DNA from: a virus
DNA: 28,768 bases
Strand: one strand, 5' to 3'
Virus record (IMG/VR): IMGVR_UViG_3300030108_000186
Location: 1-28,768 of that record
Every line of letters begins with the position of its first letter. Position 1 is the first letter of the stretch. Under the pieces are notes generated by a model. The model was not told the DNA's origin and searched no databases. It worked only from the letters and a program-made list of their open reading frames with translations. Below, one piece after another: positions 4,768-28,768 of the stretch. The translations under genes were made by a program, and so were the position numbers.

Positions 4768-5325
4768 ATGAAAATAAAATTAAGCAAATTAAAACCAAAT
4801 GAAAGTAATCCTAGAATAATTAAAGAACCTAAGTTCAGGAAGTTAGTACAAAGCATAAAAGACTTTCCAGAAATGTTAGACTTACGACCTATTGTTGTTG
4901 ATGAGCAAATGACAATACTAGGAGGTAATATGCGTTACAAAGCATGTATACAAGCAGGAATCAAAGAAGTACCTATTAAGATTGCTGAAGGATTAACTGA
5001 TGAACAAAAAAAAGAATTTATTGTAAAAGATAATGTAGGCTTCGGTGAATGGGATTGGGATAGTTTAGGTAATGATTGGGATAATGTGAAACTAGGTGAA
5101 TGGGGTATGGATGTATGGCAACCTGAAGAAGCAGTTGATTATTCTGTATTAGATGATATAGACTTAGGCGAAACATTAGAAGATAAAACAGCCGGAGTAA
5201 AAAGAGCAATCTGTATAGAATTTGATACTTTGATATATGATGAAGCTAGTGAATTAATAAAAAAATCTAGAGAAGAAGGTAATGATGTAGGAGCAATAGT
5301 ATTACAAGCATTTAAGAATGTATAA
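4768..5325 (+). CDS. ParB-like nuclease-domain protein
   Basis: 185 residues. The N-terminal ninety residues carry ParB/sulfiredoxin-fold marks: LKPNESNPR (box I, 8-16), LRPIVVD, and ILGGNMRYKACIQAG (50-64), the GG.xRyxA box that binds a nucleotide in ParB-family proteins. IVKDNVGFGEWDWDSL follows, a stretch common to phage ParB-like proteins. The C-terminal part is acidic and unassigned. No partition ParA partner exists here. In phages such ParB-like proteins occur next to TET/JBP dioxygenases, base glycosyltransferases and terminases, where a targeting or processing role in DNA modification is suspected. The last eight bases overlap the glycosyltransferase gene. It is the first gene after promoter A. 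Confidence 0.8.
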   Translation: MKIKLSKLKPNESNPRIIKEPKFRKLVQSIKDFPEMLDLRPIVVDEQMTILGGNMRYKACIQAGIKEVPIKIAEGLTDEQKKEFIVKDNVGFGEWDWDSLGNDWDNVKLGEWGMDVWQPEEAVDYSVLDDIDLGETLEDKTAGVKRAICIEFDTLIYDEASELIKKSREEGNDVGAIVLQAFKNV

Positions 5326-6154
5326 AGTATTTACATTTTTTTATAATCGTTTCACAGATGCAACCACTTCTTTAGCGTTAAAAGAAAACGGTATTGAACA
5401 TAATGTATTAATACATAAAGAAGAAGATTTAGATAAGTTTATAAAAGGTAAAACAATAGCAGGTAATCCTATAATCACAAATAAGCCAAAAGGATTAGCA
5501 TATCAAAGAAATGCAGCATTAGAATTAATGGAAGAAGGAGAATGGGCAGTTTTCATGTGTGATGATTTTAAAGATATACGTTCATATCCTATCAATGATA
5601 TTATGAATGTAAATAAAAAAATAAATGTAAATTTTGAAAACCAACAAGAACATACACTCAGACAAGATAAATTTAAAATGAATCTATCTGAAATGTTTAC
5701 AATGTTCCCAAGATTGATTGAATTAGCTGAAAAAAATAAAATACATCTAGTAGGTTTTGGTTTACACGATAATCCTTTGAACTTAGGTAGAAAATTTGCA
5801 ACAAGAGGATTAGCTGACGGAAGGTTTTGGTTAGTTAAAAAATCAAAATATAAATTTGATGAAAACGTACAAATGGTAGATGATGTATGTTGGACCGCTG
5901 AAAACTTAATTAGGCATAATAATGTTTTAATTTTAAATTGGACTGTGCCATATTTTAAAAGATATACTGCAGGAGCTTTTGGCAGTATAAGTGAACGTAA
6001 ACAACAAAGATTAAGAGAATGTAAATATTTAGCTAATAAGTTCAATCCCTTAATTAAAATAGCACACAAAGCTAATTGGGATTACGGTACGCACGTTAGA
6101 ATTTATGGCAGTAATAATAACATAAGGAAAGCTAGAATAAATAATGGATTATGA
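5318..6154 (+). CDS. TET-associated-type DNA-base glycosyltransferase (putative)
   Basis: 278 residues with a GT-A-like layout. The N terminus (YKVFTFFYNR) is followed by a nucleotide-sugar-fold region; GLAYQRNAALELMEEGEW (59-76) contains the RN pair seen in this glycosyltransferase group, and VFMCDDFKDI (78-87) has the acidic DD motif expected to hold metal and sugar nucleotide. A second acidic site, MVDDVCWTAENL (186-197), is placed like the acceptor-side motif. Families of this kind sit next to TET/JBP dioxygenases in phages and are proposed, and in some cases shown, to put sugars on hydroxymethylated bases in DNA. Here the dioxygenase gene starts four bases before its stop (ATGA). A sugar transferase acting on a surface polymer is the main alternative, but the context argues against it. 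Confidence 0.72.
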   Translation: MYKVFTFFYNRFTDATTSLALKENGIEHNVLIHKEEDLDKFIKGKTIAGNPIITNKPKGLAYQRNAALELMEEGEWAVFMCDDFKDIRSYPINDIMNVNKKINVNFENQQEHTLRQDKFKMNLSEMFTMFPRLIELAEKNKIHLVGFGLHDNPLNLGRKFATRGLADGRFWLVKKSKYKFDENVQMVDDVCWTAENLIRHNNVLILNWTVPYFKRYTAGAFGSISERKQQRLRECKYLANKFNPLIKIAHKANWDYGTHVRIYGSNNNIRKARINNGL

Positions 6155-6960
6155 AAACACTTAAATTACAAAAAATAGAACACAATAGGAAAGTAGGTAA
6201 TCGTTGTGAATATATAGAACCCAACGTAACTGAAAACTGTCTGTTAGAAGTTGATGGCGAAATAATAGGATTCTACATAAAAGATGTAGCTGAATATAGT
6301 GAACGTATGAGCAAACTATTAGCAGTAGCAGACAAAGAGTTTAGAAGCGATAATGTGCCGAAGTCTTTATTAGAACGTAGTGATGTGTTCAGTAAAGTAT
6401 ATTCAGAAGGTATGACTCGTAAACAAGCAAAGAAAGAAGGAACAATACAGATGAGTGCAATATTAGGAAGCGTAGCACCAAAACCACATATGCGTAGACC
6501 TTACCCTACAATATCAGCAGTACACAGAGATAAGAAAGCACAAACATTCATCAAAGCAATGTGGGGTTGTTGTATAGAAGCAGAACAAATCATCAAGAAA
6601 CTAACTCCTGAAATATATAAAAGGCAAGTTGAATTATTTGAAGATATAAAAAAAGATTGGCGATTCGGTAATATGTATACAAGTAGTATATCTAATTTCA
6701 ACATATCAGCACCATTTCACAGAGATACAGGAAACATTGTAGGAACAGTAAACACAATACTCACAAAAAGAAATAATGCGAATGGTGGTTGTTTAAATGT
6801 GCCTGACTACGATGCAACCTTTGAACAAGCTGACAATTCAATGTTAGTATATCCTGCTTGGAAAAACGTACACGGAGTAACTCCTATAAAACAAATCAGC
6901 GAAGATGGGTATAGAAATAGCTTAATATTTTATCCTCTCAAAGCATTTAAAGGAATATAG
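6151..6960 (+). CDS. TET/JBP-family 2-oxoglutarate/Fe(II) dioxygenase
   Basis: 269 residues. The C-terminal 90 residues show the double-stranded beta-helix core: SAPFHRDTGN (186-195) gives the iron-binding H190-x-D192, GGCLNVPDY (212-220) is the conserved GG-L strand, H241 in WKNVHGVTP is the distal iron ligand, and R255 in GYRNSLIFYP should bind 2-oxoglutarate. The HRDxxN-GGxL-H-R order is typical of TET/JBP enzymes that hydroxylate the 5-methyl group of pyrimidines in DNA. The N-terminal half is basic and includes KPHMRRPYPT. Key residues are all present, so it should be active. The likely product, a 5-hydroxymethyl base, would be the acceptor for the adjacent glycosyltransferase. Whether the substrate is 5-methylcytosine or thymine cannot be told from the sequence. 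Confidence 0.82.
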   Translation: MKTLKLQKIEHNRKVGNRCEYIEPNVTENCLLEVDGEIIGFYIKDVAEYSERMSKLLAVADKEFRSDNVPKSLLERSDVFSKVYSEGMTRKQAKKEGTIQMSAILGSVAPKPHMRRPYPTISAVHRDKKAQTFIKAMWGCCIEAEQIIKKLTPEIYKRQVELFEDIKKDWRFGNMYTSSISNFNISAPFHRDTGNIVGTVNTILTKRNNANGGCLNVPDYDATFEQADNSMLVYPAWKNVHGVTPIKQISEDGYRNSLIFYPLKAFKGI

Positions 6961-6961
6961 T

Positions 6962-7315
6962 ATGGACAAAAGTAGACACATAAAAAAGGAAGCAATGCTA
7001 CAAGCATTAGAGAATAGTTTAGGAGTAGTAACAGTAGCCTGTAAACAAAGCGATACGCCAAGAAGCACATATTACAAATGGTTAAAAGAAGATGAAGAGT
7101 TTGCGAAGTCAGTTAAGGAAATAGAGAATATTGCATTAGACTTTGCAGAAAGCCAATTACATTCACAAATGAAAGATGGTAACACTTCAGCTACAATCTT
7201 CTATTTAAAAACAAAAGGCAAGAAGCGAGGATATATAGAACGAAGCGAGTTAGATTTAAGTTCAGGCGATGAGCCGATTAAAATTAACGTAAACATCAAA
7301 GGAGTTGAACATTAA
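6962..7315 (+). CDS. terS: Terminase small subunit (HTH)
   Basis: 117 residues. The N-terminal half is a helix-turn-helix of the small-terminase type: MLQALENSLGVVTVACKQ then SDTPRSTYYKWLKEDEEFAKSV. IENIALDFAESQLHSQMKDGNTSATIFYLKTKGKKRGY follows, the oligomerisation-like segment usual in Bacteroidetes phage small terminases. The tail SSGDEPIKINVNI is a typical end for this family. It binds the phage DNA and feeds it to the large subunit. It begins one base after the dioxygenase stop, and its end overlaps the TTG start of the large subunit, so modification and packaging genes are in one operon. Confidence 0.8.
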   Translation: MDKSRHIKKEAMLQALENSLGVVTVACKQSDTPRSTYYKWLKEDEEFAKSVKEIENIALDFAESQLHSQMKDGNTSATIFYLKTKGKKRGYIERSELDLSSGDEPIKINVNIKGVEH

Positions 7316-8615
7316 TGCAGTATTTACACACACGCAAGAACAAGCGATTGAATATCTCTTTGACAAAGAAACTACAGAAGTACTATTCGGAGGAGCAGCA
7401 GGAGGTGGTAAGTCTTGGGTAGGTTGTTCGTGGTTAATATTGATGTGCTTAAAATACCCTAAGACAAGATTCTTAATGGGTAGGAGTAAACTAGATTCAT
7501 TAAAGAAAACAACACTAAATACATTTTTTGAAGTTTGCGAAACTTGGGGAATTAAAGCAGGCAAGCATTACAACTTCAATGCAGGTTCAAACATTATAAC
7601 TTTTTTTAATAAGTCAGAGATAATGCTCAAAGATTTATTCTTATACCCTTCAGATAGAAACTTTGATAATTTAGGTTCATTAGAAATAACAGGAGCATTT
7701 ATAGATGAAGCAAATCAAGTAACTGAGAAAGCAAAAAACATAGTAGCATCAAGATTAAGATACAAACTAGATGATTACAATTTAATACCTAAAATGCTAA
7801 TGACTTGTAACCCTGCTAAAAATTGGGTATATACACAATACTACAGACCTGCAAAAGACGGTAAACAAAAAAAGCACAGGAAGTTTATACAAAGTCTAGT
7901 TGATGATAATGAGTATATTTCTAAATATTATAAAACACAACTACAAACGCTTGACGAATTAAGCAAACAAAGATTACTATTTGGTAATTGGGAATACGAT
8001 GCGAGTGATGACGCATTAATTAATTACGATTCAATAATTAACCTATTCAATCAAAAAGGCGTAGCAGGGCAAAAATACATATCTTGTGATGTAGCACGTT
8101 TTGGAAGCGATAAGACAGTTATAATGTATTGGGAAGGGTTATACCTTAAAAAAACAATAACGTTGCTTAAATCGGCTATAAATGATGTTGTAGAGCAAGT
8201 TAGAGCATTACAACAGGAATATGCAGTTAATCTTAGTAATATAATAATTGATGAAGATGGTGTAGGTGGTGGTGCTAAAGATTTTTTGAGATGTAAAGGT
8301 TTTGTAAATAACTCAAAGGCATTAAAGAACGAAAACTACCAAAACTTAAAAACACAATGTTACTACAAATTAGCTGACCTAATAAATAAAGGACAAATTG
8401 GTATAGATTGTCCTGATGTTAATGTGCGTAATAATATTATAGAAGAACTTGAACAAGTTAGAACAAAAGATGCAGACAAAGATAACAAGTTGCAAATAAT
8501 ACCTAAAGACACAGTAAAAGCCATACTAGGACGTTCACCTGATTATTCTGATGCATTAGCTATGCGTATGTATTATGAAATAGATGGTAACTACGGAAGG
8601 TATTTTGTGCAATAA
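7305..8615 (+). CDS. terL: Terminase large subunit
   Basis: 436 residues. ATPase motifs: Walker A FGGAAGGGKS (28-37), Walker B AFIDEA (131-136) and the coupling motif MTCNP (166-170). The RNase-H-like nuclease domain has CDVARFGSDKT (D262), IIIDEDGVGGG (D316/D318) and SPDYSDALA (D416). This is a full-length enzyme of the usual size that cuts and pumps DNA into the prohead. No ATG lies in frame upstream of Walker A, so the TTG at 7305 is the most likely start; it overlaps the small-subunit stop. A strong GC-clamped hairpin follows the stop codon at 8618-8657. Confidence 0.93.
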   Translation: MNINAVFTHTQEQAIEYLFDKETTEVLFGGAAGGGKSWVGCSWLILMCLKYPKTRFLMGRSKLDSLKKTTLNTFFEVCETWGIKAGKHYNFNAGSNIITFFNKSEIMLKDLFLYPSDRNFDNLGSLEITGAFIDEANQVTEKAKNIVASRLRYKLDDYNLIPKMLMTCNPAKNWVYTQYYRPAKDGKQKKHRKFIQSLVDDNEYISKYYKTQLQTLDELSKQRLLFGNWEYDASDDALINYDSIINLFNQKGVAGQKYISCDVARFGSDKTVIMYWEGLYLKKTITLLKSAINDVVEQVRALQQEYAVNLSNIIIDEDGVGGGAKDFLRCKGFVNNSKALKNENYQNLKTQCYYKLADLINKGQIGIDCPDVNVRNNIIEELEQVRTKDADKDNKLQIIPKDTVKAILGRSPDYSDALAMRMYYEIDGNYGRYFVQ

Positions 8616-28494: not shown

Positions 28495-28768
28495 ATGAGC
28501 GTAACAATTAACGGAACAATTAAAAAGATTCTAGAACTAGAACAAGGAACTTCTAAGTCAGGAAAAGAATGGCAAAAGCAAAACGTAATAATAGAACAGA
28601 ATGTTGATAGAGATTGGAACAAAGATGTTGTAATAAGTGCTTTTGGCGTAGATAAAATTAATCAATTAAATAAATTCAGCGAAGGAGATACAATTGATAT
28701 TATGTGTAATGTATATTCAAGAGAATACAATGGAAAATATTATACAAGTTTAGATGGATATTGGTTTG
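28495..28768 (+). CDS. SSB-like OB-fold protein (DUF3127 type), 5' part
   Basis: ATG 28495 opens a frame that runs off the window and continues at base 1. The first residues (SVTINGTIKKILELEQGTSK) and SGKEWQKQNVIIEQNVDRDW are the DUF3127 pattern: 'G.i..i...e.gtsksGkeWqkq..vie'. VVISAFGVDKINQLNKFSEG and SREYNGKYYTSLDGYW follow. The full protein, with the acidic DLPF end read from the left side of the window, is about 111 residues, right for a single OB-fold SSB. It likely coats phage ssDNA and recruits host partners through the tail. The one mismatch of the overlap (28767 T against 99 C) falls in this gene. Confidence 0.8.
   Translation, partial: MSVTINGTIKKILELEQGTSKSGKEWQKQNVIIEQNVDRDWNKDVVISAFGVDKINQLNKFSEGDTIDIMCNVYSREYNGKYYTSLDGYWF
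28669..28768. repeat. Terminal direct repeat, right copy (circular junction)
   Basis: This is the right copy of the 100-base overlap with 1-100, with one difference at 28767. The codon frame is the same on both sides (codon boundary at 28669 and at 1), so joining the ends restores a complete gene and gives a circle of about 28,668 bases. Confidence 0.9.

Follow-up and report, generated by a model that had tools for sequence, protein, structure and literature searches.

The small marine phage (~28.7 kb) analysed here carries a three-gene operon that probably, at a likelihood that we would place near two in three, encodes a post-replicative thymine hypermodification module: a TET enzyme would generate 5-hydroxymethyluracil (5hmU), a TAGT would convert this base into a base-J-like glycosylated 5hmU, and the middle gene of the operon is exchangeable. 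A broader proposal, for which the odds seem to us even, is that a large phage family combines a TET acting as an in-DNA thymine hydroxylase with a rotating tailoring cassette, so that near-identical phages would possess chemically different DNA, the phage studied here bearing base-J-like glycosylated 5hmU and its relatives reaching Vi01-like aminoalkyl thymidines via TET instead of a nucleotide hydroxymethylase.

The whole stretch of DNA that was analysed (28,768 bp, hereafter the window) begins with 100 bp that recur at its end with one mismatch. This end repeat makes it likely that the genome is complete and, probably, circularly permuted; the view of an earlier note on this DNA, which took it for a whole genome, is thus upheld as likely, with the reservation that IMG/VR labels the record linear despite the repeat. 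No near-identical cultured phages were found, and a search of bacterial genomes for relatives of the window TET found none, which leaves the phage with no prophage or host assignment. The features of the window on which the analysis bears are the following:

1-100, no strand: direct terminal repeat, copy 1 (end-to-end repeat comparison)
4768-5325, plus strand: ParB_N-domain protein of 185 aa, constant partner of TET (ORF, Pfam, PHROG, locus comparison)
5318-6154, plus strand: predicted TAGT-like GT-A glycosyltransferase (GT) of 278 aa, filling the exchangeable tailoring slot (ORF, PHROG, fold model)
5324-6150, plus strand: exchanged cassette, with no alignable counterpart in the related genome G001 (28,564 bp)
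6151-6960, plus strand: predicted TET/JBP Fe(II)/2-oxoglutarate dioxygenase of 269 aa, with H190, D192, H241 and R255 (ORF, Pfam, alignment)
6367-6456, plus strand: length-variable TET loop, residues ~73-102, where the otherwise conserved protein varies most (alignment)
6962-7315, plus strand: terminase small subunit (TerS), conserved downstream neighbour of the operon (ORF, PHROG, locus comparison)
7305-8615, plus strand: terminase large subunit, conserved downstream neighbour of the operon (ORF, PHROG, locus comparison)
28669-28768, no strand: direct terminal repeat, copy 2, with one mismatch to copy 1, pointing to a complete genome

ParB, GT and dioxygenase are encoded by three adjacent plus-strand ORFs immediately upstream of the terminase genes, with overlaps of 8 bp (ParB/GT) and 4 bp (GT/dioxygenase), in agreement with the adjacent and overlapping genes described in the earlier note. 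Purifying selection on the operon genes is strong (dN/dS 0.04-0.08). The modification locus adjoins terminase genes in unrelated phage lineages (window 6962-8615; loci L081, L082, L170, L281 and L307), hinting at a link of this locus with late expression or packaging.

The window dioxygenase scores 33.9 bits (2.3e-8) against the Pfam Tet_JBP profile (PF12851), 1 bit short of the cut-off of 34.9, and the profile is matched by all 20 members of the dioxygenase family alignment (A3), which spans the window clade, the clade of Prochlorococcus phage MED4-184 and actinophages. Residues H190, D192, N195, R207, H241 and R255 are invariant across these three phage lineages, and a search with a TET profile weakly retrieves the TET2 structure 4nm6 (E 0.005). 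Searching the PDB by sequence with single window proteins returned nothing useful, and the AlphaFold model of the window TET, built from a narrow alignment, is poor (pLDDT 52.7). Profile matches and residue conservation assign the protein to the TET/JBP family (2OG/Fe(II) domain, HxD...H...R), and both the TET/JBP assignment and the intact HxD, H241 and R255 proposed earlier are borne out. A function as 'queuine tRNA-ribosyltransferase' was rejected as propagated annotation. TET/JBP proteins bear this label in NC_020847.1 (L081:17129-17914) and in several actinophage records, and the ParB protein of MED4-184 (L081:15790-16431) is labelled 'DNA methylase'; both labels look like propagated misannotations.

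The ParB protein matches Pfam ParB_N (PF02195) with 29.2 bits (9.8e-7), above the cut-off of 26.3; in its 185 aa Pfam found ParB_N alone, and no HTH domain was detected. Among several phage ParB families that it also matches, the top hit is to a PHROG labelled DNA methyltransferase, in its ParB-like N-terminal part. Among the loci gathered with the window TET and the MED4-184 TET as queries, ParB stands upstream of TET in all those that extend far enough in that direction, with the exception of L033, where the contig begins inside a two-gene slot, and TerS lies immediately downstream of TET in nearly all. ParB is the constant partner of TET. The ParB domain is a frequent companion of phage DNA-modifying enzymes (PMC12783734).

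As for the GT, no match was found in Pfam, PF20691 TAGT included, and a weak one (3e-4) was obtained with PHROG 842, 'beta-glucosyl-HMC-alpha-glucosyltransferase'. The GT class of L018, 29% identical to the window GT, scores above the PF20691 cut-off, and GTs located between ParB and TET in relatives match PF20691 TAGT. The AlphaFold model of the window GT (pLDDT 85.5) adopts a GT-A fold, with a Z of 13.6 versus ppGalNAc-T2; D82, D189, R11 and N65 are conserved, and the DD motifs at 82-83 and 188-189, which the earlier note had listed for its GT-A-like glycosyltransferase, are confirmed. On sequence and modelled fold the protein is a predicted TAGT-like GT-A glycosyltransferase, TAGT being the PF20691 family named for its association with TET (PMC13216743).

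The interval between ParB and TET usually holds one gene, with two in L057 and L033 and none in L115, L116 and L133-L136. Its occupants comprise many TAGTs, whose mutual identity falls to less than 20%, a P-loop kinase of 154-160 aa and an FkbM methyltransferase. When the window is compared with G001 (28,564 bp), 27,275 of its 28,768 bp align with a mean identity of 93.5%, and the sole unaligned stretch longer than 351 bp in the window is 5324-6150, that is the GT gene. Homology ends at the last bases of ParB and restarts at the A of the TET start codon, and the slot of G001 holds another TAGT than the window GT. Furthermore, GTs that share 84-85% identity with that of the window adjoin TETs only 71-73% identical to the window TET. 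Among 73 TETs, pairs below 88% identity have the same slot class at about the base rate, and the 11 slot classes on a tree of 63 TETs require 31 changes (minimum 10, shuffled mean 39.5). Two TETs that are 97.4% identical are paired with a TAGT in L071 and with a kinase in L073. The position of the middle gene is thus a tailoring slot open to exchange within a ParB-TET pair that is kept: in the related viruses, which number hundreds, the outer two genes are stable and the decorating gene between them is swapped. This trait, which the earlier note had no means of seeing, is more distinctive than the lack of a methyltransferase.

Several slot contents are worth recording on their own. An FkbM-type SAM methyltransferase occupies the slot in L048, L078, L081 and most of L086-L159, a gene content predicting a methoxymethyl pyrimidine, a base of which we know no phage example. 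The two-gene slot of L057 (8599-9327) consists of two TAGTs and that of L033 (3-656) of a TAGT and, before it, an ORF that resembles glycosyltransferases and has a DxD motif, so that a disaccharide decoration is possible in both. The actinophages Acadian (L082:1707-3025) and Lilmac1015 (L169:5828-7158) encode a TET, a TAGT-like GT and a PIG-L/glucosaminyl deacetylase, a combination that points to DNA bearing a deacetylated amino sugar. The variable loop of TET comes in several discrete types spread over the TET tree and could be a DNA-context recognition loop. The idea that loop type tracks slot class was discarded: kinase-bearing TETs share one type, but the TAGT-bearing L074 and L080 have the same one.

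The kinase found in the slot offers an entry to the question of the modified base. It is homologous to gp7 of the Rhodococcus phage Tonitrus, a PF18751 kinase, with an identity of only ~22-28%; the authors who described gp7 call it a 5-hmU DNA kinase and suggest that, together with TET and ParB, it may serve to hypermodify thymidine (PMC11955845). With the slot kinase as query, contigs were reached that encode TETs sharing 53-57% identity with the window TET. In L276 the order is ParB, PLP enzyme, amino-acid:DNA transferase fused to a kinase, and TET; L281, L284 and L295 have the same set as separate genes, L297 has ParB, transferase, FAD-type enzyme, FkbM methyltransferase, kinase and TET, and Mycobacterium phage RawrgerThat has ParB, TET, transferase, kinase and terminase. 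For both the transferase and the PLP enzyme, matching proteins exist in hundreds of Vi01-type phages (of Salmonella, Vibrio, Klebsiella, Escherichia and Dickeya), a family in whose DNA 5-(2-aminoethoxy)methyl-dU replaces part of thymidine (PMC11721090) through a pathway that begins at 5hmdU (PMC6449724). A thymidylate-synthase family enzyme was found in none of 13 TET-bearing kinase/transferase records (0/13), and a C5-methyltransferase in none of 12 (0/12).

The simplest reading of these gene sets is that TET would supply 5hmU from thymine. Indeed, thymine is favoured because TETs of the same family adjoin a kinase, an amino-acid:DNA transferase and a PLP enzyme that have homologues in hypermodified-thymidine phages, and because those TET records are devoid of a thymidylate-synthase-type enzyme and of a C5-methyltransferase. 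Since TETs as close as those of L071 and L073 serve a TAGT and a kinase, respectively, the base modified by the TAGT branch is most likely that of the kinase branch. On the opposite side, a few relatives have a C5-methyltransferase, and the kinase-transferase pathway is found in relatives and not in the window: the 5hmU DNA kinase and the amino-acid:DNA transferase, present in L276, L281, L284, L295 and L297, are not among the window matches. The earlier note had offered thymine or host 5mC; it was right in posing this alternative, which the comparative evidence now tips towards thymine, base J itself being a candidate product.

With respect to completeness and METHYLTRANSFERASE, a profile search of the likely complete window genome for PF00145 gave no match, and no C5-methyltransferase was found among the remaining window ORFs scanned, so that the report of a window without methyltransferase stands. 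PF00145 had no match either in the relatives G006 and G024, which have similar end repeats and are likely complete. The earlier note had considered a methyltransferase-free arrangement unusual, and this has to be abandoned, as it is the rule in the family: PF00145 is present in only 4 of 75 distinct other records (~95% without it; 2/34, 2/25, 0/6 isolates and 0/12 by set, with two isolates shared between the set of 34 and that of 6), many of these records being fragments, so that the absence is strongest for the complete ones. The PF00145-free arrangement includes isolated phages of Prochlorococcus, Mycobacterium, Microbacterium, Arthrobacter and Rhodococcus. A C5-methyltransferase lies directly upstream of ParB in L036 (514-1350) and L038 (6567-7403), and short, divergent methyltransferase-like proteins of 207 aa occur in L038 and L041.

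It is unlikely, in our estimation, that TET oxidises 5mC produced by a host C5-methyltransferase, with TAGT glycosylating the resulting 5hmC at host-methylated sites. Experimentally studied phage TETs do act on 5mC, and the enzymes encoded beside ParB in L036 and L038 speak for the same substrate, as does the known TAGT, which acts on a 5hmC derivative (PMC13216743). A C5-methyltransferase is encoded in 36 of 121 genomes of one Prochlorococcus genus, a sample that neither excludes nor supports the exploitation of host 5mC. However, ~70% of those genomes, many of them incomplete, showed no such enzyme, so that a virus dependent on it would often remain unmodified, and the ParB-TET pair is nonetheless kept in all loci with enough upstream sequence but L033. 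Moreover, host 5mC leaves the presence of the kinase, the amino-acid:DNA transferase and the PLP enzyme beside same-family TETs unexplained.

Still more improbable is a methyltransferase of the phage itself that escaped recognition, for example a small early ORF, making 5mC so that TET and TAGT then act on cytosine. Many small early ORFs of the window are unannotated, and the 207-aa proteins show that short and divergent C5-methyltransferase-like sequences do occur in relatives; these proteins, however, have no match in the window, neither the window nor the likely complete G006 and G024 contains PF00145, and independent lineages are also without it. Least probable of all is that TET acts on DNA and that the gene in the slot is an unconnected accessory, for instance for virion or cell-surface glycosylation, which happens to lie in an insertion hotspot: phage glycosyltransferases often have other targets and the loci with an empty slot indicate that TET does not need a slot gene, but the occupants (TAGT, hydroxymethyl-base kinase, methyltransferase) could all act on a hydroxymethyl group, the TAGT family owes its name to TET, and start and stop codons overlap in the window.

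For the thymine hypermodification module that we favour, we infer thymine as the substrate and a sugar on the base, as well as the role of ParB and defence as the selective force, in the following scheme. The phage DNA would be replicated with ordinary thymine, and ParB, which has no recognisable HTH domain, would probably load or target the enzymes on DNA. TET would then hydroxylate the methyl group of thymine in the phage DNA to give 5-hydroxymethyluracil, and TAGT would move a sugar from a nucleotide-sugar donor to the hydroxymethyl group, yielding base-J-like glycosylated 5hmU. Recombination would join one ParB-TET core with one TAGT or another, with a hydroxymethyl-base kinase or with an FkbM methyltransferase, or would leave its slot empty, and phages would in this way switch their DNA decoration, presumably, and this is speculation, against modification-dependent restriction and nucleases or base-excision (DNA glycosylase) defences.

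Phage TET/JBP-TAGT-ParB systems were reportedly predicted by Iyer et al. in 2013, possible thymine use being anticipated. As in the window, the predicted systems unite TET/JBP, TAGT and a ParB-domain protein in one phage locus; what distinguishes the window is a likely complete 28.7-kb genome without C5-methyltransferase, in which the tailoring gene is exchanged and ParB-TET kept. If the base of the window is thymine, the kinetoplastid base J pathway (JBP1/JBP2 and JGT), with thymine as substrate and beta-D-glucose as sugar, has the same logic of hydroxylation followed by glycosylation, whereas the window system is viral, employs another glycosyltransferase family and has ParB in place of the J-DNA-binding domain. 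Phage 5mC-TET systems with a phage C5-methyltransferase, reportedly described by Burke et al. 2021 and Pyle et al. 2024, share TET and diverse DNA-decorating glycosyltransferases with the window, but their defining C5-methyltransferase is absent from it. Glucosylated 5hmdU had not been reported from a phage by 2019 (PMC6449724).

Relatives of the window encode an amino-acid:DNA transferase, a PLP enzyme and a kinase that are homologous or analogous to the thymidine hypermodification pathway of phages Vi01/ViI, M6 and phi W-14. In Vi01/M6-type phages 5hmdU is thought to be incorporated as a nucleotide during replication (PMC6449724), whereas TET would make 5hmdU in DNA afterwards, and the window has a TAGT and not the kinase-transferase branch. 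The five-gene locus of Tonitrus includes ParB, TET, kinase and amino-acid:DNA transferase, and thymidine has already been suggested for it (PMC11955845), but its TET is only 26% identical to that of the window, in which TAGT replaces kinase and transferase. A literature search, beyond whose reach lay the main phage-TET papers, found no earlier description of the exchangeable slot or of a TET replacing the Vi01-type 5hmdU-forming enzyme. The slot exchange and the Vi01-type link are new; phage TET, TAGT and ParB systems had already been predicted.

If the thymine reading is true, base-J-type chemistry would be widespread in marine phages, beyond kinetoplastids and their kin, and phage TET/JBP enzymes would have two substrates, divided by the presence of a C5-methyltransferase. 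The slot is a catalogue of enzymes that would decorate hydroxymethyl bases in DNA, and near-identical phage pairs differing mainly in the tailoring gene constitute natural tests of decoration versus restriction, CRISPR and DNA-glycosylase defences. Furthermore, cultured actinophages of the TET family make the thymine question directly testable.
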